The notes: a model not told the origin generated them from the letters alone. Positions 11,490-31,741 are shown, counted from the stretch's first letter. The stretch is DNA of 64,000 nucleotides from Haloarcula japonica DSM 6131 (GCF_000336635.1 NZ_AOLY01000048.1:1-64000); one strand, 5' to 3'. A program made the numbers and translations.

Positions 11490-11622
11490 ACTCTATCTAG
11501 TACGGTTGTCTTTCTATAATACTTCCGCCGCGGCACTTCTGACGGCTGTGGAGGCCCCACGCGGGATGAGGAATGTTAACTTCTGGGGAAATATTAAGTA
11601 ACTGGAATCTTCAATAGCCGGT

Positions 11623-12798
11623 ATGGAACTGTTCGACTTCCATATTATGCCGTACCAGTGGGTAAACGACCATGCCTGGCCGTTCCCCAACGACAAATGG
11701 GACAAGGAGAAAGGATCCAAGCTGTACAAAGACTATCTCAATCAGTTGGAGTACAGTGACGAACTCGGTTTCGACGGTCTCGGTGTCAACGAACACCACT
11801 TCTCGGCCTATGGTCTGATGCCCTCGCCGAATATCATGGCCTCGAATCTCGCGGCTAGGACGGAGGATGCGACCATCGCCTTCTTCGCGAACGTCATCCC
11901 GACACGGGAGAACCCAGTACGACTTGCCGAGGAGATCGCGATGCTCGACAACATGACGGAGGGCCGCATCATCAGCGGGTTCGCTCGCGGTATCCCCACC
12001 GAATATGCCTCTTGGAGCGTCCCTATGGAGGAGTCGCGTGACCGCTTCGAGGAGGCCTGGAAGCTCATACTCAAGACGTGGACGGCGGACGAACCCTTCG
12101 ACTGGGACGGTGAGTACTGGCAGTATGACAACGTCTACACGTGGCCCCGCCCGTACCAAGACCCGCATCCCGAACTCTGGATGCCCGCCGAAAGCGAGGA
12201 GTCGCTCCGCTGGGCCGCCGAGAAAGACGTCGGAATCGGTTCAGTCTTCAACTCTCCACAGGAGATGCGGGAAATCTTCGATGAGTACCGCGAGTACGCC
12301 AACGAGGAAGGCAACTCGGTCGGCGACGACAAGTTCACTGTCAGCCGGACGGTGTATGTCGCCGAGACCGACGAGAAGGCCACTGAAGAGGCGAGAGAAG
12401 CCCTGAAATACCACTACAAGAACATCACTGCGGGCGTTCACAAAGGCGCGACCGCATGGATGATGGGCGACGACGAGTACGACCCCGAAAAGGAGGAGAC
12501 CTACATCGAGAACCTCCATCCCCACGGCGAACTTGCGTGGAACTTCGACTTCGACGAATTCTCGGACCGCGGCGAGGTCATCGTTGGAAGTCCCGAGACC
12601 GTCGCTGCCGAAATCGAACGGCAGTACGACGTCGTCGGTGGCTTTGGCCGATTTGCCGGCCAGTTCACCTTCGGCAACCTCAGCCACGAAAAGGCAATCA
12701 GGAACCGCGAACTCTTCGCGGACGAGGTCATGCCTGAACTCCGGCGCATGGGTCAGGTCACCGGCGGTACCGCCCAGACGGCCGGAGCAGACGACTAA
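11623..12798 (+). CDS. LLM-class flavin-dependent monooxygenase (luciferase-like)
   Basis: This 391-aa TIM-barrel protein belongs to the bacterial luciferase family. Key segments are LGFDGLGVNEHHFSAYG (30s-60s), the barrel strand with FFANVIPTRENPVRLAEEI, the flavin-contacting MLDNMTEGRIISGFARG and the late EIERQYDVVGGFGRF. Enzymes of this class use reduced FMN and O2, for hydroxylation, Baeyer-Villiger oxidation or C-S/C-N cleavage. A TATA-like ATATTAAG at 11591-11598 is about 25-30 nt before the ATG, so the mRNA is nearly leaderless. The flavin reductase-like gene at 986 and the riboflavin genes at 13472 and 14660 could supply reduced FMN. Confidence 0.9.
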   Translation: MELFDFHIMPYQWVNDHAWPFPNDKWDKEKGSKLYKDYLNQLEYSDELGFDGLGVNEHHFSAYGLMPSPNIMASNLAARTEDATIAFFANVIPTRENPVRLAEEIAMLDNMTEGRIISGFARGIPTEYASWSVPMEESRDRFEEAWKLILKTWTADEPFDWDGEYWQYDNVYTWPRPYQDPHPELWMPAESEESLRWAAEKDVGIGSVFNSPQEMREIFDEYREYANEEGNSVGDDKFTVSRTVYVAETDEKATEEAREALKYHYKNITAGVHKGATAWMMGDDEYDPEKEETYIENLHPHGELAWNFDFDEFSDRGEVIVGSPETVAAEIERQYDVVGGFGRFAGQFTFGNLSHEKAIRNRELFADEVMPELRRMGQVTGGTAQTAGADD

Positions 12799-21023: not shown

Positions 21024-21779
21024 ATGGGATGCAAGGTCGAGACACTGGCTGACCGGTATGACCTCACGGCCCCTGGATCAGGGAACCACTCTCTCGACGA
21101 GTATCTCGTGGCTCGCTGGACCGGCCGTGACGGACGATCAGCGGTCGGGTACAAATCGCTCACGGAGTGGTTCAACAAACGGGTTCTCAAAGAGCTATAC
21201 GCCGAAGTAGATCGGGAAACACTGGGTGTCCATCTGGACCGTGAGTACGAACTCATAACCGGTGATGACGACGTAGCGTACGACGAGCTGGCAGCCGCGC
21301 TTGCTGCTGATGGACTCGACATCGAGCGCATCGAGAGCGAACTCATCTCTTGGAGCACGATGCGCCATCATCTCAAGGGGTGTCTCGAAGCGGACAAAGA
21401 CACTAACGAGGCGAAGACCGACTGGGAGTCAAACACCGTCGAGGTTGCCCGACAGCGGACCGAAGAAAAGGCCCAGTCAGTTCTTTCTTCGCTGGCATCG
21501 AAGGAGCGACTCGCAGATGCTGAGTCCGCCGAAGTAGATGTTCAGGTAAAACTCGGCTGTTCGGATTGTTCCGTTCGGGTCCCGTTTGACGAGGCGGTCG
21601 AGCGTGGTTACGTCTGTGAACAGCACGTCTCAGATGAGGACGAGAAAGAGACCACCGTGGATAGCTGGAAGAACACTCTCTCATCAGTGATTACACCCTA
21701 TGGTGCGGTCGAAGCGGTCCAGTGTCTGTTGCTCGAAGAACCATCCCTCCTAGAGACACTCCTGCTCCCAGTACTCTGA
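21024..21779 (+). CDS. RdfA-like (rod-determining factor family) protein
   Basis: The 251-aa protein resembles the haloarchaeal RdfA family: a helical N-terminal half with SLDEYLVARWTG and SLTEWFNKRVLKELY, the IESELISWSTMRHHLKGCL segment, and a C-terminal zinc ribbon with CSDC (179-182) and CEQH (198-201). Family membership is from memory of the sequence pattern. RdfA is needed for rod shape in Haloferax volcanii; many haloarchaea have extra paralogues next to SMC-like genes. ATG 21024 gives the conserved start; the open frame extends 36 codons upstream into the transposase relic. The next gene starts two bases after the stop, so both proteins are made together. Confidence 0.75.
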   Translation: MGCKVETLADRYDLTAPGSGNHSLDEYLVARWTGRDGRSAVGYKSLTEWFNKRVLKELYAEVDRETLGVHLDREYELITGDDDVAYDELAAALAADGLDIERIESELISWSTMRHHLKGCLEADKDTNEAKTDWESNTVEVARQRTEEKAQSVLSSLASKERLADAESAEVDVQVKLGCSDCSVRVPFDEAVERGYVCEQHVSDEDEKETTVDSWKNTLSSVITPYGAVEAVQCLLLEEPSLLETLLLPVL

Positions 21780-21781
21780 AC

Positions 21782-23560
21782 ATGACATGGGAACTCACAG
21801 TTGAGAATATCGCCGGGATTCGTAGCGCAAACGAGGCAATCGAACCTGGTGTGAACGCCGTCCGTGCGAGCAACTGGCAAGGGAAATCGAGCTTTCTACA
21901 GAGTATCCAGACAGTGTTCGGGACTGAGACGCCGCTCACTGAGGGTACTGACCAGGGCCGGGTCGAGCTCAACGCGGACGGCGAGGCGTTCGAAGTTCGA
22001 CTCGAACGGGACGGCGTGGCGGTCAGTCGCCGCGGTACCCCGTACCTTTCGTCCGAGTATGATCAAATCTGTGCCGATCTATTCGCATTTCTCGACGAGA
22101 ATAACGCTGTTCGAAAGGCAGTCCGAGACGGCGACCCGCTTGAGCCGGTCCTTACGAGGCCGCTCGATTTCGAGGACATCGACGGCCAACTGGCCGAACT
22201 GCGGTCCGAACGAGACCAGGTCGAACGCGAACTCGAACGGGCTAATGATGCGGCAGAGCGGCTCCCCAAACTGCAGGAGCAAGAGACCAAGTTTGAGGCT
22301 GAGCTTGAGGAACTACGCAGCGAACGGGAGGCGCTCGACGCCGACGGCGACAACACCGAGGCCAGAGCAGAACTCAGCGACCTCCGTGCAGAGCGAGAAC
22401 GCGTGCAGCGACGTGTCGACCGGCTTGAGCAGACTGTCGAGCGAGTGGAAACCCGGCTTGCCGAGAACCGCACTGAACTCTCTGAGCTGACTGTCCCGGA
22501 GGAGAGCGATATAGAGATGGAGTTAGAACAGGTTCGCGAGCGTCTCCGATCACTCGAACGGGACCGAGAGCTGTTACAGGGGGTTTTCGAGGCTAACAAG
22601 CGGGTACTCGACTCGGACCGAACTGAGTTGCTGACTGACGTCTCTCGGGATGTACTCGGGGACACAGTCGAATGTTGGCTCTGTGGGACGGAAACGACGA
22701 GCGACGAAATGGCTGACAAGCTCGACGCACTGGACGAGCAAATTACCGAGCTACGTCGGGAGGAATCAGAGTACCGGACACGAGTCGAAGAGCTTGAGGC
22801 CCGCCGAGACGAGGTCAAAACCGCCCGCCGGCAGGAAGCGGACTTGACGGACCGAATCGGCGAGCTGGAAACTTCTCTCGACGAAAAAACCGAGGAACTC
22901 TCTTCAGCCCGCGACCGACTGGCTGATCTGGAGGCCCGCGTCGATGAGGTGACAGAGTCCGTCGAGACAGAATCGGAACGGCTCACCGACATAGAGAGTG
23001 AGATCAAATACACAGAAGCCGAACTCGAAGACGCTCGGGCGGAACTGGCCGACGCCGAATCCCGTGCCGAGCAGCGTGAGATGCTGAGCGCAGAGTATGA
23101 CGATCTCACAGCGGAAATCGCTTCGCTTCGGAACCGTAAAGATGAGATCAAGCAGGACCTCCGTGAGTCGTTTTCGACAGCGCTAGCGGAGCTGTTCGAA
23201 CGCTTCGATACGGGCTTCGAGATGGCTCGCCTGACCAGTACGTTCGACCTCGTCATCGCCCGTGATGGGCGCGAGACGACACTCGATGCCCTTAGCGAGG
23301 GTGAGCGGGAGCTACTCGGCTTCGTCGTTGCACTCGCTGGTCACGAGGCGTACAACGTGGGTGAGCGTGTCCCGGTGTTGCTCCTCGACGGGCTGGGAAG
23401 CCTCGCAAGTGACAACATCGCCACCTTCGTCGAGTACACTGTGGACCGGGTTGACTATCTTGTCTTGACGGCGTATCCTGAACACGACGGATTCGAAGCA
23501 AACGAACTTTCCCCGTCTGACTGGGATGTCATCTCTCATCAGGCCGAAACCAAATCGTAA
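21782..23560 (+). CDS. archaea-specific SMC/Rad50-related ATPase
   Basis: The 592-aa protein has the SMC/Rad50 layout: Walker A in ASNWQGKSSFLQ (about 30-40), a long coiled coil, a central zinc-hook-type CWLCG (Cys298, Cys301), a second coiled coil, the ABC signature LSEGERELLGF and Walker B VPVLLLDGLGS at the C-terminal end. It is shorter than true SMC or Rad50 (over 800 aa). The start follows the rdfA-like stop by two bases; in-frame codons upstream overlap that gene and are not needed. SMC-related genes beside rdfA are a recurring haloarchaeal pair, suggesting a role in DNA organisation or cell shape. The hook would dimerise two molecules around zinc. Confidence 0.85.
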   Translation: MTWELTVENIAGIRSANEAIEPGVNAVRASNWQGKSSFLQSIQTVFGTETPLTEGTDQGRVELNADGEAFEVRLERDGVAVSRRGTPYLSSEYDQICADLFAFLDENNAVRKAVRDGDPLEPVLTRPLDFEDIDGQLAELRSERDQVERELERANDAAERLPKLQEQETKFEAELEELRSEREALDADGDNTEARAELSDLRAERERVQRRVDRLEQTVERVETRLAENRTELSELTVPEESDIEMELEQVRERLRSLERDRELLQGVFEANKRVLDSDRTELLTDVSRDVLGDTVECWLCGTETTSDEMADKLDALDEQITELRREESEYRTRVEELEARRDEVKTARRQEADLTDRIGELETSLDEKTEELSSARDRLADLEARVDEVTESVETESERLTDIESEIKYTEAELEDARAELADAESRAEQREMLSAEYDDLTAEIASLRNRKDEIKQDLRESFSTALAELFERFDTGFEMARLTSTFDLVIARDGRETTLDALSEGERELLGFVVALAGHEAYNVGERVPVLLLDGLGSLASDNIATFVEYTVDRVDYLVLTAYPEHDGFEANELSPSDWDVISHQAETKS

Positions 23561-23652: not shown

Positions 23653-23871
23653 ATGAGCGAGTTTACCGAGGCCCACGAGCGTGGAGTCCAAGCATTCACT
23701 CAGAGCTTATTGCACAGGGAATAGACGTGTAGCAACTGTGATTTCCAGGATACAGTCCTCCACGGCGACTGGCAGACCCACGCCGAGACGGACCACCAGT
23801 CGGGCCACATACGGTATCGGCTCACGTGTCCGGACTGTCAGTCAGAGGAAGTGCTCGATATCGATATTTGA
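23653..23871 (+). pseudogene. small zinc-finger gene interrupted by a TAG codon
   Basis: The frame from ATG 23653 codes for 72 residues with two zinc-binding pairs (CSNC and CPDC), as in small haloarchaeal zinc-finger proteins. Codon 24 is TAG (23722-23724), directly before TCSNCDFQ; a Trp (TGG) would fit there. The sequence stays in one frame on both sides. It is probably a recent nonsense mutation. Readthrough or start of translation downstream cannot be excluded. Confidence 0.5.
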
Positions 23872-23974: not shown

Positions 23975-24718
23975 TCACTCCTGAGGCACCGCGGAGGCAC
24001 CGAGGATGAAAACCAGCGCGGCGAACATCGCCAGTACGAGCAGGTCGGACCAGGCCGGTTGGCCGAGATAGGTGACCTTTCTGACCCCGCGAGAGAAGTA
24101 CGTGAGTGGTGAAAGACCGATCACCGGACGGAACCACGTTGGAAGCCGCTCCGGCATCACGAATGTCTCGGAGAGGAACACGAGCGGCAGCGCGATGGCG
24201 TTACTGGCGGCGACGACACCATCCTGTGAATCGGTAATCCGTCCCAGTATGGCTCCGAGGCCGCAAAAGACCACCACTGCGAGAATGATAAACAGGAGTA
24301 ACAACGGTGAGAGTCCGATAGTCCCGTCCACGAGCAGTTCCAGAACCCCCAGTACGACGGTACTCGCAAGAATGATGATAGCGATGTTGACGAGTGTGTG
24401 TGCAGCCAACCACTCGCGAGAGGTCGCAGGTGTGGTCGACAGCTTCTGAAACCGGTTCCCATCCCGGTATCGAGCGAACGCACTCCCGATTCTGGACAGC
24501 GGGGTGAACAGGACGATAACAGCCAGATAGCCCGGCACGTAGAAACTGGTCGGGTGTCCGAACAGACCGCCACCCGCCGGGTTCGCCTGAACGATGATGC
24601 CGAATATCGCGACGAGGATGAGCGGGAATCCGAAGGTGAAAAAGACCGCTGTCCGCCGCCGAAGGAATGTTCGCCACGCCGCGCCGGCCTCGGCAGTGAC
24701 ACGGCTCGTCCGACTCAC
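23975..24718 (-). CDS. ABC-2 type exporter permease
   Basis: The 247-aa protein has six predicted membrane spans in the ABC-2 pattern: an N-terminal cytoplasmic stretch, first span FFTFGFPLILVAIFGIIV, and a C-terminal part with RPVIGLSPLTYFSRGVRKV, the short amphipathic segment typical of the family before the last span. It follows its ATPase gene with a 4-nt overlap (ATGA). Such two-gene exporters move drugs, lipids or polysaccharide precursors, or serve as daunorubicin-type efflux pumps. The cargo is not evident here. Confidence 0.88.
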   Translation of the reverse strand: MSRTSRVTAEAGAAWRTFLRRRTAVFFTFGFPLILVAIFGIIVQANPAGGGLFGHPTSFYVPGYLAVIVLFTPLSRIGSAFARYRDGNRFQKLSTTPATSREWLAAHTLVNIAIIILASTVVLGVLELLVDGTIGLSPLLLLFIILAVVVFCGLGAILGRITDSQDGVVAASNAIALPLVFLSETFVMPERLPTWFRPVIGLSPLTYFSRGVRKVTYLGQPAWSDLLVLAMFAALVFILGASAVPQE

Positions 24719-25653
24719 CGGGACCGACCCCCGGCAGTCATGGGCTCTCGCGAGGGTCTGTTTTCGTCGATACGCTCATCGGTGAGGCTCAAGTAGACAT
24801 CTTCGAGGGAAGGGTCGGCCCATGTGAGCGTCTCGTACGTGACTCCCTGCGTGTCCAGCTGTCCGACGATCCGCCCGATATCAGCCGTCGCAACATCCAG
24901 AATTCGTATGCCGTCTTCTGTCGGCTCCACATCAGCCTCAAGTACCGACAGTTGCTCCGGGGATGTTTCTGTCTCAACGAGGAGATGCGTACCACCGCCG
25001 TAGGATTCGATAAGGTCGGTCGGCGGGCCGACTTCGACGATTGTCCCGTCATCGAGCAAGGCGACTCGGTCTGCGAGCTGCTGGGCTTCTTTCATGTAGT
25101 GGGTCGTGAGAAATATCGTCGTCCCCCCGGCCGACAAGTCGTCGATGAGTGACCAGAGCGACTGACGGCCAGCCGGATCGATTCCCGTCGTTGGCTCGTC
25201 GAGAAAGAGGAGATCAGGGTCGTTAACGAGAGTAATGCCGACGCAAATACGCCGCTGTTGTCCACCCGACAGGTTTGTGTACCACGTATCGTCCTCTGTT
25301 TCCATGCCAACAGCGGCGAGTACGTCATCGCCGCGTTGTTGGTCGTCATAGAGTCCCTGATAGTACGTTACTAGTTCACGTGCTGTTAGCCGTTCCGGCG
25401 GTGTAAACGACTGAGGAAGCAGTCCGACACGTCCGTCCTCGACACTGGTCGGTGACTCGCCGAAGATGCTAACTGAGCCCGAATCAGGCGTTGTTGTTCC
25501 GGTAAGGGCTTCGACGAGGGTTGTCTTTCCAGACCCATTCGGGCCAACTAACGCGAAAATCTCCCCGCCGTCGACATCAATCGACACGTCGTCGAGTGCG
25601 ACTGTGTCGTCGTACCGTTTGCTGATACTCTCAGCTAGAACTGCTGGGGGCAT
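24715..25653 (-). CDS. ABC-2 exporter ATP-binding protein (DrrA/CcmA-like)
   Basis: The 312-aa ATPase has Walker A GPNGSGKTT, signature LSGGQQRRI, Walker B DLLFLDEPTTGIDPAGR and a C-terminal extension (about 220-300) as in DrrA-type multidrug exporters. It is translated with the ABC-2 permease gene that overlaps its 3' end. The divergent DUF106 gene begins 114 nt upstream. No regulator gene is adjacent. Confidence 0.9.
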   Translation of the reverse strand: MPPAVLAESISKRYDDTVALDDVSIDVDGGEIFALVGPNGSGKTTLVEALTGTTTPDSGSVSIFGESPTSVEDGRVGLLPQSFTPPERLTARELVTYYQGLYDDQQRGDDVLAAVGMETEDDTWYTNLSGGQQRRICVGITLVNDPDLLFLDEPTTGIDPAGRQSLWSLIDDLSAGGTTIFLTTHYMKEAQQLADRVALLDDGTIVEVGPPTDLIESYGGGTHLLVETETSPEQLSVLEADVEPTEDGIRILDVATADIGRIVGQLDTQGVTYETLTWADPSLEDVYLSLTDERIDENRPSREPMTAGGRSR

Positions 25654-25766: not shown

Positions 25767-26663
25767 ATGCCAGATAAACCGGTACCATCGGTTATAGAAG
25801 AACCAGCGATGCGTGATGCTCTCGCTACGGTGGTTGAGCACAGTGACAAGGGAAACGAACCGCTCCAGTGGAACGACGTGAGCGAGTCGCTGTCCAATGA
25901 AGAGTGGGGACGACTCATACGGGAGGGGGTGCTTGTCAGTGATGGCACCGGATTCACCGTGGCGAATCCAGAGCGGGTGCGAGAGGCACTGCAACCGGAC
26001 GAACCGATGGATACAACGACGGACACAGACGGAATCGAAGCTGAATCGTGGGCCTGGTATGACAAAGCAGCAGGGCTGGCGGCCCTCTCACTTTTTGCGG
26101 GGTACTGGAGCACCGGTATCAGGGATACCATCGCATCGTACGACGACCTCCTTCTTGCCCCCGTCACGGATGCGTTCCCGTTTTTCGCCGTCATCATACT
26201 ACTCGCAATCGTCACCGGACTGTATTCGACCGTACTGCAGTCACGGCTGAGAGACACCGAGAAGATACAGGCATATCAGAAGCGGGTAAACGAGCTGAAA
26301 GAGCGCAAGGAGGCGGCAAAAGAGCGCGGTGACGACGAAGCTCTTGCGGAGCTACAGGAGGAACAAATGGAAGTCGCCAGCGACCAGCTCGGGATGTTCA
26401 AACTGCAGTTCCGGCCGATGGTGTGGATCATGCTTTTGACCATTCCAGTGTTCCTCTGGCTTCGGTGGAAAGTTCGCGGTGGTCACCTCGGCGCGAGTGA
26501 GTTCGGCTTGATCGTGCCGCTGGCTGGCGCCGTCGGCTGGCAAGAGCCGTTGTTCGGACCCATGAAAACATGGATTGTCTGGTACTTTCTCTGTTCGATG
26601 GTGTCGCGGCAACTCATCCAGAAGACGTTCGATATTCAGCCGACCGCCTCGCAATCAGATTGA
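25767..26663 (+). CDS. DUF106 family membrane protein insertase-like (EMC3/YidC-type)
   Basis: The 298-aa protein has an N-terminal winged-helix-like acidic region (WNDVSESLSNEEWGRLIREG), then three membrane segments split by a charged coiled coil (KRVNELKERKEAAKERGDD) and the conserved FRPMVWIMLLTIPVFLW and WIVWYFLCSM motifs. This is the architecture of archaeal DUF106, a relative of EMC3, TMCO1 and YidC/Oxa1 that helps insert membrane proteins. Haloarchaeal core copies sit beside the ribosomal-operon secY. This one lies away from ribosomal genes but close to another secY-like gene, so it appears to be a paralogue within an accessory translocation module. Confidence 0.88.
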   Translation: MPDKPVPSVIEEPAMRDALATVVEHSDKGNEPLQWNDVSESLSNEEWGRLIREGVLVSDGTGFTVANPERVREALQPDEPMDTTTDTDGIEAESWAWYDKAAGLAALSLFAGYWSTGIRDTIASYDDLLLAPVTDAFPFFAVIILLAIVTGLYSTVLQSRLRDTEKIQAYQKRVNELKERKEAAKERGDDEALAELQEEQMEVASDQLGMFKLQFRPMVWIMLLTIPVFLWLRWKVRGGHLGASEFGLIVPLAGAVGWQEPLFGPMKTWIVWYFLCSMVSRQLIQKTFDIQPTASQSD

Positions 26664-26743
26664 CAGGAGCTAAGTGGTTGTTACACGATTCCGGGAGAGC
26701 AAAGGCGAAACTGATTAGCAACACGACGACAGGATGTCGAGTG

Positions 26744-27421
26744 ATGCCGTCGTCACGCTCGCATCTCCAATCACCGGTATCGATAGTTGTCTTCAGCATC
26801 GGTGTCTGTTTCCTCGTATTGGGAGCATTTGGGGTACTGGCCGACACTCACCCGGCGATAAGTGTCTCAGGGTGGGGACTGTATGCCGACAGGAATCTGG
26901 AGGTCATCGGAGTGCTTACCGGCGGTGTTGCACTCCTGGGGGAGTCGGTTCTCATACCGGCGGGCTGTGATACACCGCCAACGCTCGATTGCCAGACAGT
27001 GTACATGGCCGAGCCACTGCAGGAGATGCTCCTTTCGCTTGCCGCCGAGGCAGAGCCGGACACGGTGTCGTTCGGCCTCGCGGTCACGCCAGCGGGCAAC
27101 CTCGCATCCGGTACCAACGTACCCGATCAGACTCCGGTCTTTTCAGACGTCTATCTACCCGAAGAGCCGAACTCAGTCAGTTCCGTATTCGGCATCGACT
27201 TGTCGACCCCACCACAGCGGACGCAGGGTCGGTTCATTTCTCACCCACGCTCCGGACTGGAGGTGACCAAGCGCGATGACCTGCACGAAGTCGTCTTTGT
27301 GGCTGTGCCACCCTGGCACGATGCATCTATCGCGGCGTTTGATCGGGCAGGCCGGCGCCACCGTCTCGAAACGGTGGACGCTACGGCGGTCCCGGACGTT
27401 CCCGAACCAGTAAACATTTGA
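26744..27421 (+). CDS. unknown membrane protein between DUF106 and SecY genes
   Basis: The 225-aa protein (ATG 26744; GTG 26741 is also possible) is not recognised. It begins with a short basic stretch and two hydrophobic segments (SIVVFSIGVCFLVLGAFG and VIGVLTGGVALLGES), followed by about 155 soluble residues with two Cys (CDTPPTLDC), several strand-like segments and no known motif. By the positive-inside rule a short hairpin with the soluble domain on the cytosolic side is likely. Its place between an insertase-like and a SecY-like gene on the same strand suggests it is part of the same translocation module. Confidence 0.6.
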   Translation: MPSSRSHLQSPVSIVVFSIGVCFLVLGAFGVLADTHPAISVSGWGLYADRNLEVIGVLTGGVALLGESVLIPAGCDTPPTLDCQTVYMAEPLQEMLLSLAAEAEPDTVSFGLAVTPAGNLASGTNVPDQTPVFSDVYLPEEPNSVSSVFGIDLSTPPQRTQGRFISHPRSGLEVTKRDDLHEVVFVAVPPWHDASIAAFDRAGRRHRLETVDATAVPDVPEPVNI

Positions 27422-27539
27422 AAGGCCACACAAGAAATAGCGACAACCACCGCGTCAGCAGTATCATCGGCAGCGCTACGTAGAGTAGCAGCGGTAGAGC
27501 TGTCTGTGACCTGTTCTGGCGTGGGGGTCCCACAAGCAT
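27381..27539 (-). CDS. possible small membrane protein
   Basis: A 52-codon minus-strand frame from ATG 27539 codes for a short protein with one strong hydrophobic segment (LPLLLYVALPMILLTRWLSL). Its 3' end overlaps the neighbouring gene by 41 nt. No family was recognised, and the composition could arise by chance, so this is a weak call. Confidence 0.2.
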   Translation of the reverse strand: MLVGPPRQNRSQTALPLLLYVALPMILLTRWLSLFLVWPFKCLLVRERPGPP

Positions 27540-27611
27540 GACGCATATGATTCGTTGTCGGTATAGCTGTCAGTATGGTATCGTCACTTGGCCGTGCGCT
27601 GGAGGACAGCG

Positions 27612-29081
27612 ATGAGCTGGAAAGACACGGCAGAACCCGTGCTGGTCCGGATGCCAGCCGTCCGCAAGCCGGACCGACACATCCCGTTCAAACGGAAACT
27701 GGCGTGGACGGCAGGCGTGCTCGTCCTCTATTTCTTCCTGACGAACGTGATGTTGTTCGGGCTTGATATCACCCGTGACCAGGCCGTGTTCGGTCGCTTC
27801 AGCTCGATACTTGCGTCCGGCCAGGGATCAGTGCTACAGCTCGGTATCGGGCCCATCGTCACGGCGAGTATCGTCTTGCAGCTGCTGGGTGGGGCCAATC
27901 TCCTTGGACTCGATACACAGAACGACCCACGCGACCAGATACTCTATCAGGGGCTTCAGAAGTTGCTGGTGCTGGTGATGATTTGCCTGACCGGTCTACC
28001 GATGGTGTTTGCAGGGAATTTCCTCCCCGTGGACACCCAGGTGGCCCAGTCACTGGGTGTTGGAATTGCCGGTGTCCAGTGGCTCATTTTCGCACAGATG
28101 TTCCTCGGCGGTGTGCTTATTCTGTTCATGGACGAAGTGATCTCCAAGTGGGGGGTCGGCTCCGGTATCGGCCTGTTTATCGTCGCTGGCATCAGTCAGC
28201 GACTCGTCGGTGGGTTGCTTACACATCCGGCTATCGGCGGTCAACAGTACGGTATCATTTTGACCTGGATACGGATGGCGACCGGTGCCGTTCCTATCGG
28301 TCCCGTCTTTAGTTCCGACGGCCTACAGGCACTCCTATTCACACAAGGCCATTTGCTTCAACTTTTCACGACACTCCTCATCTTCGCTATCGTTGTCTAC
28401 GCCGAATCCGTGCGTGTGGAGATCCCACTCTCGAATGCGAGAGTAAAGGGTGCGCGAGGTCGGTTCCCGGTGAAACTCATTTACGCTAGCGTCCTCCCGA
28501 TGATATTCGTCCGCGCGATACAGGCGAACATTCAGTTCCTGGGCCGTATTTTGCGGGCACAACTGCAGAGTCTGCCAGCGTGGCTCGGTGTCTACGCGAA
28601 CGGGCGTCCCGTCGGAGGGCTGTTTTATTATCTTGCACCGATCCACTCTCCGCGTGACTGGATGTGGTTCCTCGGCGGGGCTACCCAACCTGTCTGGAAA
28701 GTACTGCTGCGGATGGGCATTGACCTCACGTTTATGATCAGCGGTGGTGCCATCTTCGCCGTCTTTTGGGTCGAGACTGCCGATATGGGGCCTGAGTCGA
28801 CGGCACAACAGATTCATAGTTCCGGGATGCAGATACCTGGCTTCCGCCAGAACGTCGGCGTCATTGAGAAGGTTCTAGAGCGGTATATTCCACAGGTCAC
28901 GGTCTTGGGAGGCGCGCTTGTCGGTCTGCTGGCGGTCATGGCGAACATGCTTGGTACCATCGGCGGTGTCGGGGGGACGAGCTTACTGCTCACTGTCTCG
29001 ATCACGTATAAACTGTACGAGGAGATCGCTGAAGAGCAACTCATGGAGATGCATCCCATGATGCGCCAACTGTTCGGGTGA
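27612..29081 (+). CDS. secY: SecY-family protein translocase channel (apparent second copy)
   Basis: The 489-aa protein is a full-length SecY with ten membrane spans. It begins MSWKDTAEPVLVRMPAV like core haloarchaeal SecY and keeps the pore motif region (LQLGIGPIVTASIVLQLLGG), the cytosolic loop VEIPLSNARVKGARGRFPVKL and the C-terminal YEEIAEEQLMEMHPMMRQLFG. ATG 27612 has Shine-Dalgarno GGAGG at 27600-27604; an in-frame TTG at 27588 is unlikely. There are no ribosomal protein genes nearby, unlike the usual secY locus, so this is probably an additional channel. The DUF106 gene upstream supports a complete accessory insertion system. Confidence 0.9.
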   Translation: MSWKDTAEPVLVRMPAVRKPDRHIPFKRKLAWTAGVLVLYFFLTNVMLFGLDITRDQAVFGRFSSILASGQGSVLQLGIGPIVTASIVLQLLGGANLLGLDTQNDPRDQILYQGLQKLLVLVMICLTGLPMVFAGNFLPVDTQVAQSLGVGIAGVQWLIFAQMFLGGVLILFMDEVISKWGVGSGIGLFIVAGISQRLVGGLLTHPAIGGQQYGIILTWIRMATGAVPIGPVFSSDGLQALLFTQGHLLQLFTTLLIFAIVVYAESVRVEIPLSNARVKGARGRFPVKLIYASVLPMIFVRAIQANIQFLGRILRAQLQSLPAWLGVYANGRPVGGLFYYLAPIHSPRDWMWFLGGATQPVWKVLLRMGIDLTFMISGGAIFAVFWVETADMGPESTAQQIHSSGMQIPGFRQNVGVIEKVLERYIPQVTVLGGALVGLLAVMANMLGTIGGVGGTSLLLTVSITYKLYEEIAEEQLMEMHPMMRQLFG

Positions 29082-29220: not shown

Positions 29221-29574
29221 ATGGACGAAGAGACCAATCCTCCGAAACCACCAGTTGACTTGCCCGATGACATCGCATCTGTGTTACAAGATGCCACTGT
29301 ACATGACCTCCGGGAGGGTTTGATATATGCTCAGGAGCCACTCCAGCATAATCATGAACCGACCGAGCAGATCGAGCCATTACCAGGTGAAGAGATCGTC
29401 GAAATAAAAGGTGAAGGCAAGCGGTTCACGGTACTGAAACGCCAGCCGTGTGCGGATAATTGTCCCGACTGCCCACACGGGCCGTATGTTTACGAAGTTA
29501 CACAAGAAAAACAACTGAACGGCGAGACACACTTTCACTGGGCGTTCATCGGCCCATATATTGTAAACGAATAG
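29221..29574 (+). CDS. small cysteine-containing protein (DUF6788-like)
   Basis: The 117-aa acidic protein has a C-terminal motif CADNCPDCPHGPYVYEV followed by THFHWAFIGPY, resembling small zinc-binding proteins of the DUF6788 type (CxxCxxGPYxY). The first 60 residues are proline- and acid-rich without recognisable domains. Similar proteins occur near mobile DNA and DNA-related genes, but their role is unknown. Its stop lies two bases from the end of the convergent halocyanin gene. Confidence 0.65.
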   Translation: MDEETNPPKPPVDLPDDIASVLQDATVHDLREGLIYAQEPLQHNHEPTEQIEPLPGEEIVEIKGEGKRFTVLKRQPCADNCPDCPHGPYVYEVTQEKQLNGETHFHWAFIGPYIVNE

Positions 29575-29575
29575 C

Positions 29576-30253
29576 TCAGTCGTTGCCGCCGCTGGTATGC
29601 GGTGATTCGGCGTACTTGAGCTGGAAGAAGGCGAATATCATTGGGAGAATCACGGCGAAACCTGCACCGAAGCCAATGAAGTGTGGTTGCAACGGGACTC
29701 CCGCTTGGTGGGGGTCTACTTCGACGGGACCACCGCCACCAACAGTCGTTGTCGGATACTCTTCGCCCACGACCACAGCGCCCTTCATCCCGAGGCCCTT
29801 GTGTGGGTCACAGTAATACTTGTAGAGACCAGCCTCCTCGAACGTGTATTCGTAGTTGACTCCAGCACTCCCTGTTGCTGAGCCTGAGTCAAGTGGACCA
29901 TCGCCGTCTGAGACCACGTTGTGGCCACCACCTTCGCCCGTCCATTCGAACTGAACTGTCGTGCCCGTGTCGACGTGAATTGCGGGCGGGCCGAAGCCGA
30001 ACGCGCCGCCGTTCGCCTGCACACCGACTTCGACAGTTTCCGACTCCTGTCCTGTCGCGTCGACGGTGCTCGTCGGGTCACTGAAGTTACCGACGTCACT
30101 AAACCACCCGCCGTAGTCCGGGACTGTGGTCGCTTCACTCCCACCACTCTCACCGCCGCCGTCTTCCTGTGCGGCTGCGGTTCCAGATACGCTGAGCGTG
30201 CTCAGAGCGGTCGCTGTACCTCCGGCTGTCTTGACGAACTGCCGTCTGTCCAT
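29576..30253 (-). CDS. halocyanin-like blue copper protein with C-terminal membrane anchor
   Basis: The 225-aa protein has a twin-arginine signal (MDRRQFVKTAGG) with cleavage near AAA at about 26-29, an acidic linker, a plastocyanin/halocyanin domain and a hydrophobic C-terminal anchor (about 195-213). Copper ligands are in place: His111 (GGHNVV), Cys148, His151 and Met156 (YYCDPHKGLGMKG). It would act as a small electron carrier on the outer membrane face, exported by Tat. It has no Cys lipobox, so the anchor replaces the usual lipid. Partner oxidases are not in the window. Confidence 0.9.
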   Translation of the reverse strand: MDRRQFVKTAGGTATALSTLSVSGTAAAQEDGGGESGGSEATTVPDYGGWFSDVGNFSDPTSTVDATGQESETVEVGVQANGGAFGFGPPAIHVDTGTTVQFEWTGEGGGHNVVSDGDGPLDSGSATGSAGVNYEYTFEEAGLYKYYCDPHKGLGMKGAVVVGEEYPTTTVGGGGPVEVDPHQAGVPLQPHFIGFGAGFAVILPMIFAFFQLKYAESPHTSGGND

Positions 30254-30314: not shown

Positions 30315-30551
30315 CTACCGGTGGTACCCGCGGAGCCACCGGATCGCGAACGATGTGATACCGAGACCGCGTTTGGCCATGATGACCGTACTCTGTGCGC
30401 GCCGTCCGACGGCTTCGGGAACGGCCCCGACGACTAATTGCTGGAGCATACTCTCACACGATGCACTGATAACGGTCATATCAACGTCGGCAGTTGCCTC
30501 GACGATGGTGCCGGCGATGTCGTCACTCTCGATACGCCTCCGGGTCGCGTC
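30315..30551 (-). pseudogene. UspA-domain C-terminal fragment (inverted piece of a permease/UspA gene)
   Basis: The minus-strand frame ending at TAG 30315-30317 reads IAGTIVEATADVDMTVIS, then LLQ-type residues QQLVVGAVPEAVGRRA and TVIMAKRGLGIT. This is the C-terminus of haloarchaeal amino-acid permease/UspA fusions. A stop just upstream (30552-30554) cuts it off at the point where the plus-strand UspA fragment begins. Confidence 0.55.
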
Positions 30552-30778
30552 TCAACGTCGTTCAGATTCTCGTTCCAAGTCGGGGTGAGAACGCCACCTC
30601 GCTGGCGCTTCTCGCCGGCCGAATAGCCGCGGTGCATGATGCTGGGAAGGTCGTCCCCATGGGTTCCATCACGACCGAAACTATCGACCAACTCGAAGCA
30701 GACCTCGCAACCAGCGAGTCCGAGACAGACCCGACCAAGGAAAGAGACCGACTCGAAGAGGGTATGATCACTGAATAA
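30551..30778 (+). pseudogene. UspA-domain fragment on the opposite strand
   Basis: The plus-strand frame from 30551 to the TAA at 30776-30778 reads LNVVQILVPSRGENATSLAL and then GRIAAVHDAGKVVPMGSI, the beginning of a universal-stress-protein domain, then an acidic tail. It abuts the inverted C-terminal UspA fragment at 30551. The two pieces probably came from one gene and were placed head-to-head by an inversion. Confidence 0.45.
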
Positions 30779-31741
30779 TCCTTGTCCAGACTTAAACGGA
30801 TACAGGATTCGCTTACGTCGGTCGTCGACATCATCTGTGAGTTCGTCGTAGCCGTCGAATCCGGCGGGCCCGGTGAAACTGTTCACCGGACCACAGCCGA
30901 CGAGAACTGTGATCCGGTCGGGCACCAGACGAAGTCAACGAAGGGCAACCGACGAAATACATTAAATAGCATCTGGGCGGACCGACCGATGTAATCACAT
31001 TCCGGTCGGCTACTGGGATGACTGAGTGGCATCACGTTCTCGTCATGGTGGGGAATGTAGGGTCGGTTACGAACGCAGTGTTCGAGTCCGCCCAGCGACT
31101 TTGTCCGAAGCATGGGGTAGTTAGTGTCTGTACTTGCACAAGCAACGTGCCAGTCGAAGAAACGCCGAGATAATGCTCGAAAGCCTCGAACAGCCATTCT
31201 ACAGGCCGGTCGAAACGAGAGTCCCGCACGACTCCATCGAGCACTGACCGGAGTACGTTTTCGCGCTTGTTTTCTGAACCGACGCACGAATCACTTCGTG
31301 ACCTCAACTGTGACTTGGCCGTCGTCCACCAGAGTTGATTGTCCGCCGTGAAAGGAAAGAGCGGACGAGAACCGTACTACCAAAGGACACGAGCCATACG
31401 ACTCTCGTCGTTCAGAACCGCTCTCACGGTCGGCGGCGTATCGAGTTGCCGCTTTGGTAAATCGGTATGACAATCACTCAGTGATTGTTACTAGATCAGC
31501 GGTATACTGATTTTTGAAGTGAGGAGCGTAAACAGGCCCGGGCTACTTCCACGGATCGCATATCGATAAACAGTGATTTGATCTATGCCCTGCGTGTGCC
31601 AAGCAGTTCAATCCTGGGGTGGAGTCACTTTTCGCGAGACCCGGATAATCCATCTGTACGGTTGGGTTCATAAGGCAGTTGATGACTACAACGGTGGGCA
31701 AGCGATTGGTATCAACCCGCGGAGCCGAGTGTACAGGTGAA
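30779..31741. other. gene-poor decayed segment
   Basis: No complete gene is supported across these 963 bases. Several short minus-strand frames (31032-31307, 31291-31473) have some haloarchaeal-like codon choice, for example a stretch VLDGVVRDSRFDRPVEWLF, but they lack starts or recognisable domains. It looks like degraded DNA at the junction between the UspA fragments and the glycosyltransferase gene. Confidence 0.45.

Follow-up and report, generated by a model that had tools for sequence, protein, structure and literature searches.

Second SecY proteins are known from streptococci and staphylococci, where SecY2, with SecA2 and other dedicated partners, serves only some substrates and works alongside the housekeeping SecY. 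In eukaryotes, Sec61 cooperates with membrane insertases (PMC7505659, PMC9630114), while in archaea an EMC3/YidC-type protein with an EMC6-like partner has been described, for which biochemical data from archaeal cells are absent according to PMC8675477. Here we describe a three-gene module coding for a second EMC3 (EMC3-2), a membrane-anchored pseudo-JAMM protein (JAMM-TM), and a second SecY (SecY2), found in a 64,000-nt stretch of Haloarcula japonica DSM 6131 DNA (NZ_AOLY01000048.1:1-64000; the window), which makes up most of a 72,760-base contig. The island carrying these genes probably encodes an accessory archaeal translocon, composed of SecY2, JAMM-TM as an adaptor, and EMC3-2, and using the SecE and Sec61-beta of the host. 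No accessory SecY in archaea was described in the literature searched, most subscription journals lying outside the search, in agreement with an earlier note on this DNA, which knew of none in haloarchaea.

The analogy to the Gram-positive SecY2 systems drawn in that note holds as an idea, i.e., a second SecY with its own partners, but not as kinship: the window SecY2 scores 11.2 bits on TIGR02920 (cut-off 249.6) and falls outside that family, and its partners are an EMC3 and a pseudo-JAMM protein. Neither SecA2, Asp proteins, nor a serine-rich glycoprotein were found among the recognised island genes, although no dedicated test was made, and to our knowledge SecA does not occur in archaea. 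By analogy, the module would thus work like an accessory translocon without being a member of the Gram-positive SecY2 family.

The genes of the module

EMC3-2, JAMM-TM, and SecY2 are encoded on one strand, in that order:

25767–26663, + strand: EMC3-2, a DUF106/EMC3/YidC-like insertase of 298 amino acids (PF01956; MJ0480 match; module clade)
26744–27421, + strand: JAMM-TM, 225 amino acids; two spans at the N-terminus, followed C-terminally by a degenerate JAMM/MPN domain at residues 84–213 (AfJAMM profile match; hhalign)
27236–27277, + strand: degenerate JAMM motif I-S-H-P-R-S-G-L-E-V-T-K-R-D, first His lost (canonical H-x-H-x7-S-x2-D; from alignments)
27612–29081, + strand: SecY2, an accessory SecY of 489 amino acids (PF00344, PF10559, NF006341; alignment to M. 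jannaschii SecY, 1RHZ)
28506–28508, + strand: codon of the SecY2 signature residue F299 (L in the canonical SecY, SecY1), corresponding to M. jannaschii L261 in TM7, adjoining pore-ring I260
28779–28781, + strand: codon of signature residue A390 (T in SecY1), corresponding to M. jannaschii T338 at the end of TM8
28980–28982, + strand: AGC codon of signature residue S457 (G in SecY1), corresponding to M. jannaschii G403 in TM10, one turn before pore-ring L406

The earlier note had reported a complete SecY and a complete DUF106 protein outside a ribosomal context, and both are indeed full-length. SecY2 covers positions 1–306 of 306 of PF00344 (233 bits, Pfam), carries the plug domain PF10559 (33.6 bits, Pfam), and reaches 307 bits on NF006341 (NCBIfam, cut-off 300). 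Its start codon is most likely the ATG at 27612, which gives 489 residues as in the relatives, an upstream TTG being less likely. Besides the plug, it has the conserved C-terminus and a complete pore ring, I79, V83, I186, I190, I298, and L460, corresponding to M. jannaschii I75, V79, I170, I174, I260, and L406. Judged by family and channel features, SecY2 is an ordinary archaeal SecY retaining all that a channel needs. EMC3-2 is complete over PF01956 (139.4 bits, cut-off 27.1, positions 1–168 of 169) and matches the MJ0480 structure 5C8J (E 6e-10).

The canonical counterparts are separate genes of the same genome, so the window secY is not its only copy. The canonical SecY (82% identical to SecY2) lies directly 3' of rpL15 in the ribosomal operon on contig C9, and the canonical EMC3, of the MJ0480 type (49% identical to EMC3-2), lies on contig C39 in the order adk–EMC3–cmk–cbf5. 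SecE and Sec61-beta are each present in one copy, SecE being found with TIGR00327, since PF00584 misses the haloarchaeal protein even in Haloferax volcanii; PF07019 (EMC6) remained below its own cut-off in every control. With two SecY and two EMC3 to one SecE and one Sec61-beta, SecY2 would have to share the latter two. Thus, the island has the same families as the canonical translocon, but differs from it in its non-ribosomal location, the lack of its own SecE and Sec61-beta, the three signature residues of SecY2, and the linked anchored pseudo-JAMM.

The middle protein, previously noted as an unrecognised protein of 225 amino acids with two spans, has an intact reading frame with two hydrophobic spans and matched no Pfam or NCBIfam family; it is not, however, an orphan, as it carries a JAMM-like domain. 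The search of the PDB with a profile of 32 JAMM-like members returned only the AfJAMM entries 1OI0 and 1R5X (E 5.6e-8 and 8e-8), the match covering profile positions 4–127 of 137, while no EMC8/9 chain reached E 10. Profile–profile comparison by hhalign gave 96.5% against true haloarchaeal JAMMs and 0.1% for an EMC3 control, and together these matches place JAMM-TM in the JAMM/MPN domain family, with homology over the whole domain. The motif takes the form [VI]-S-H-x7-[ST]-x2-D in most aligned rows, the first His being V or I in nearly all members, and the position of the catalytic Glu is variable. Since this metal-ligand His is lost and the Glu position is not conserved, JAMM-TM and its soluble form should be inactive as proteases, in contrast to the AfJAMM and haloarchaeal JAMM (Prok-JAB) metalloproteases, from which the island form also differs in being membrane-anchored. 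In the Haloferax JAMM-TM, the second span is followed by several arginines (by eye), for which reason the JAMM domain would be cytosolic.

Residues 84–213 of JAMM-TM share 52% identity with a soluble protein, about 140 residues long, of the same genome (contig C37), matched in 140 of the 146 genomes of the family and in all 96 of the more complete ones. The two hydrophobic N-terminal spans are found only in the island form, and JAMM-TM sequences form one clade (95/87). The soluble pseudo-JAMM (L035 5737-6144; L056–L075) is itself near-universal and lacks a Pfam or NCBIfam family; the genes next to its own usually code for a CopG-like regulator and for a conserved protein that is likewise uncharacterised. 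None of the neighbourhoods examined showed a link to Sec genes, and the viral contigs searched contained no relative of the JAMM-like protein.

Distribution and ancestry

Among 391 haloarchaeal genomes, each at least 90% complete, an intact second SecY was found in 15 (3.8%), leaving out split genes (G270, G277, G371), a partial copy (G033), and a remnant (G017). Sixteen genomic loci, from six genera of three families, were read, as was an annotated plasmid of Haloferax lucentense. In all 16, as well as on the plasmid, JAMM-TM adjoins SecY2 and EMC3-2 lies in the same island. The three-gene order that the earlier note had proposed to look for elsewhere recurs in other haloarchaea. RdfA and ASRP, the two families at the island head, are present wherever the locus is long enough (the 7.5-kb G086 contig being too short). 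Most often the genes follow one another as RdfA, ASRP, a 72-aa zinc-finger-like protein, in some islands an ABC exporter, then EMC3-2, JAMM-TM, and SecY2; in Haloferax islands, RdfA–ASRP lies downstream, and in G372, EMC3-2 lies beyond RdfA–ASRP. Module EMC3-2 sequences form one clade (98/95), near relatives of which occur in about 18 of 213 genomes.

RdfA, ASRP, and EMC3-2 without SecY2 are found on plasmids of Halorubrum sp. BOL3-1, Halobaculum magnesiiphilum, and Natrinema caseinilyticum. Of the about 18 genomes with a module-type or nearby EMC3-2, eight have a single SecY; in these, the JAMM-like protein is present in its soluble form only and an intact JAMM-TM is absent. The EMC3 of one of the eight, G167, lies outside the module clade. 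The H. magnesiiphilum plasmid holds, beside EMC3-2 in its island lacking SecY2, a broken two-span remnant of JAMM-TM (G263:C2:254286-254519; L049 about 11577-11810). Because all SecY2 loci read hold JAMM-TM and none of the single-SecY genomes with EMC3-2 holds an intact one, JAMM-TM and SecY2 are gained and lost together atop an RdfA–ASRP–EMC3-2 core.

Complete plasmids carry several of the islands (191 kb in Haloarcula pelagica, 285 kb in Haloferax lucentense); a scan of genome contigs gave two loci only, both from Haloarcula. On the 191-kb H. pelagica plasmid unnamed3 (L042, L043; G020:C4) the island occurs twice, the SecY2 of the second copy being in pieces. A C-terminal piece of a SecY, 108 residues long (G017:C23:8636-8959; L132), shares 89% identity with the window SecY2 and is likely a trace of a lost island. 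In a Haloarcula relative, a partial second SecY (residues 134–497; G033:C1:1854640-1855725), 80% to the window SecY2, lies about 6 kb from the canonical gene. A match on plasmid unnamed1 of Natronorubrum bangense was rejected as SecY2, being a ribosomal-operon SecY; this 828-kb replicon labelled as a plasmid (L053) carries a ribosomal-protein operon with secY, and seems to be either a chromid or a piece of chromosome with the wrong label. Highly divergent EMC3 paralogues outside the module clade are encoded on Haloferax gibbonsii pHGLR2 (L055 9001-9903), within a polysaccharide locus, and on Halalkalicoccus jeotgali plasmid 2 (L054 9001-9903).

In the phylogeny of both SecYs, twelve SecY2 sequences from several families form one clade (100/98), while five Haloarcula SecY2, including the window copy, are sister to the canonical Haloarcula SecY (97/88). 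The AU test rejects monophyly of SecY2 (p-AU 0.0012), and since JAMM-TM forms one clade, the SecY slot beside it was filled at least twice, the Haloarcula SecY2 descending from Haloarcula SecY.

The 37 canonical SecYs compared are near-invariant at 261 columns, of which the large SecY2 clade is changed at five and the Haloarcula group at seven, the groups having been defined after the tree was seen. Three of these changes, L299F, T390A, and G457S, are shared by both groups, in column as well as in new residue (hypergeometric p 1e-4). Codon 457 is AGC in the Haloarcula group and TCA or TCG in the other clade; H. pelagica keeps GGC, one step from AGC. Since the serine codons are unrelated, G457S arose convergently in the two groups. 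That gene conversion supplied every shared residue was rejected, as no stretch of the Haloarcula SecY2 resembles the other SecY2 clade more than it does Haloarcula SecY1, and the S457 codons are different.

EMC3-2, JAMM-TM, and SecY2 are under purifying selection. The dN/dS of SecY2 is 0.04–0.10, within the SecY1 range (0.04–0.05 for the window SecY2 against four relatives), that of EMC3-2 0.13–0.21, and that of JAMM-TM 0.07–0.26.

Neighbouring genes and candidate substrates

The other features of the window island are as follows:

21024–21779, + strand: RdfA family protein (rod-determining factor paralogue), core island member; 89% to the annotated RdfA of H. pelagica
21782–23560, + strand: ASRP, archaea-specific SMC-related protein, core island member (NF045487, 464 bits)
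23653–23871, + strand: 72-aa zinc-finger-like protein, kept in most islands (island comparison)
23975–24718, − strand: ABC-2 exporter permease, optional island member (PF01061, 73 bits)
24715–25653, − strand: ABC-2 exporter ATPase, optional island member (PF00005, 103 bits)
29221–29574, + strand: 117-aa protein, optional island member; no Pfam or NCBIfam family, relatives in other islands
29576–30253, − strand: halocyanin with a twin-arginine motif (TIGR03102, 156 bits); in islands of Haloarcula only

RdfA and ASRP correspond to the RdfA–Sph3 pair, two gene families that control cell shape in Haloferax volcanii (PMC10869688) and stand side by side at the island head as well; the island paralogues differ in being plasmid-borne and coupled to EMC3-2, often also to SecY2. 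The gene of the 72-aa protein has an in-frame stop at codon 24 in the window and is open in H. pelagica. In the island of Halorubrum sp. BOL3-1 with RdfA, ASRP, and EMC3-2 there is also a gene of a TATA-box-binding protein (L048 8196-8762).

The earlier note saw an accessory SecY plus an EMC3/YidC-like module, which is genuine, with a conserved third partner in several genera, and suggested the nearby halocyanin and exporter among its clients, neither of which bears up. The halocyanin has the twin-arginine motif MDRRQFVKTAGG and is a poor substrate candidate because of this Tat signal; besides, its gene lies on the strand opposite to the SecY2 module. As for the ABC exporter, some of the islands have it and others do not.

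Positions 30318–31332 of the window hold remnants of a gene of an 803-aa amino acid permease and of an HPP-family gene, both whole at the same place in Haloarcula sebkhae. They have decayed in the window while EMC3-2, JAMM-TM, and SecY2 remain intact, which we count in favour of the accessory translocon.

Proposed working and alternatives

In the proposed accessory translocon, SecY2 would be a working translocation channel assembled with the sole SecE and Sec61-beta of the cell. JAMM-TM would be the dedicated partner specialising SecY2, its two spans adjoining the channel, and its cytosolic, catalytically dead JAMM domain might dock a nascent chain, the ribosome, or a regulator; an anchored adaptor seems the simplest reading, as the pseudo-JAMM is the one obligate companion of SecY2. 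EMC3-2 would act as a companion insertase helping to position transmembrane segments. Under control of the island, the unit may serve only some membrane or exported proteins, with a possible tie to RdfA/SMC-like cell-shape functions; the role of the RdfA–ASRP families in Haloferax volcanii hints at surface or shape proteins as clients. The genes and their intact state, the purifying selection, the strict pairing of SecY2 with JAMM-TM in the genomes examined, the repeated uptake of SecY, and the shared changes around the pore are shown here; the physical complex, the use of host SecE and Sec61-beta, the adaptor role, and the topology are inferred.

Several points weigh against this proposal. 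The case is built from genes, that is, from their presence, linkage, and selection, and co-occurrence of SecY2 with JAMM-TM is no proof of a complex. The island comparison found no substrate gene common to all islands. EMC3-2 with RdfA and ASRP also occurs without SecY2, and hence EMC3-2 may have a separate role. S457 is absent from H. pelagica, and at F299 and A390 both SecY2 groups use the same or synonymous codons, so the sharing of these two residues could be due to gene conversion. The two spans and the topology of JAMM-TM were read by eye, and its AlphaFold prediction, made with three sequences only, has a mean pLDDT of 29.5.

That the island merely adds housekeeping insertion genes, raising Sec capacity, e.g., for permeases of the same plasmid, with no dedicated function, is an unlikely explanation. 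It accords with the many transporter genes of the islands, and with a SecY2 that has lost none of the channel features and has 82% identity to SecY1. However, an additional SecY by itself would need no membrane-anchored JAMM partner, yet JAMM-TM is there in all 16 loci; moreover, SecE and Sec61-beta are not duplicated, and the shared, partly convergent changes at near-invariant sites argue for an altered function. Those changes could also be read as target replacement, with SecY2 insensitive to a natural product or toxin blocking SecY and the island serving as a resistance cassette, whose MATE and DrrA-like ABC exporters expel the compound. The signature residues adjoin the pore ring, where their alteration would lower binding, MATE/TetR and ABC-2 exporters are present in several islands, and inhibitors of Sec61 exist, resistance changes acting via translocon dynamics (PMC7427319). 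Nevertheless, the mycolactone-resistance sites in Sec61-alpha lie mostly on and around the plug, on the lumenal side, and not at the SecY2 signature positions (PMC7427319). Target replacement also leaves the SecY2–JAMM-TM tie, EMC3-2, RdfA, and ASRP unexplained, and we regard it as improbable. We know of no SecY-blocking inhibitor from archaea.

Very improbable is a role in regulation or quality control, in which SecY2 would serve as bait for JAMM-TM, and JAMM-TM would direct a protease system or a ubiquitin-like one (SAMP) to translocons that are clogged or damaged. Haloarchaeal JAMM relatives (HvJAMM1) act on ubiquitin-like SAMP conjugates, which a dead JAMM can still bind, but the plug, pore ring, and conserved C-terminus of SecY2 fit a working channel.

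Compared with the accessory translocon, a wider proposal is doubtful, namely that SecY2, EMC3-2, and the anchored pseudo-JAMM form an archaeal holo-translocon for multipass proteins, parallel or distantly related to Sec61 with EMC3/TMCO1 and a dead MPN subunit (EMC8/9), the soluble pseudo-JAMM acting likewise for the main SecY and EMC3. The eukaryotic EMC/Sec61 multipass machinery resembles the module in having an EMC3/TMCO1-family insertase working with Sec61, and the cytosolic EMC8/9 subunits are inactive MPN-fold proteins. On the other hand, the MPN subunit of EMC is soluble, EMC is without Sec61, and the JAMM-TM profile matched AfJAMM, not EMC8/9; nor did EMC2, CCDC47, Nicalin, or further subunits turn up, although no search was aimed at them.

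If the accessory translocon is real, archaea too have accessory SecY systems, with an EMC3/TMCO1-family insertase, and the pseudo-JAMM partner may be a lead to factors of the standard archaeal translocon that have gone unrecognised. A plasmid-borne, dispensable SecY–EMC3 set in the genetically tractable Haloferax would allow tests that leave the cell alive, and a SecY recruited more than once, with partly convergent changes in the pore area, would constitute a natural experiment on translocon tuning.

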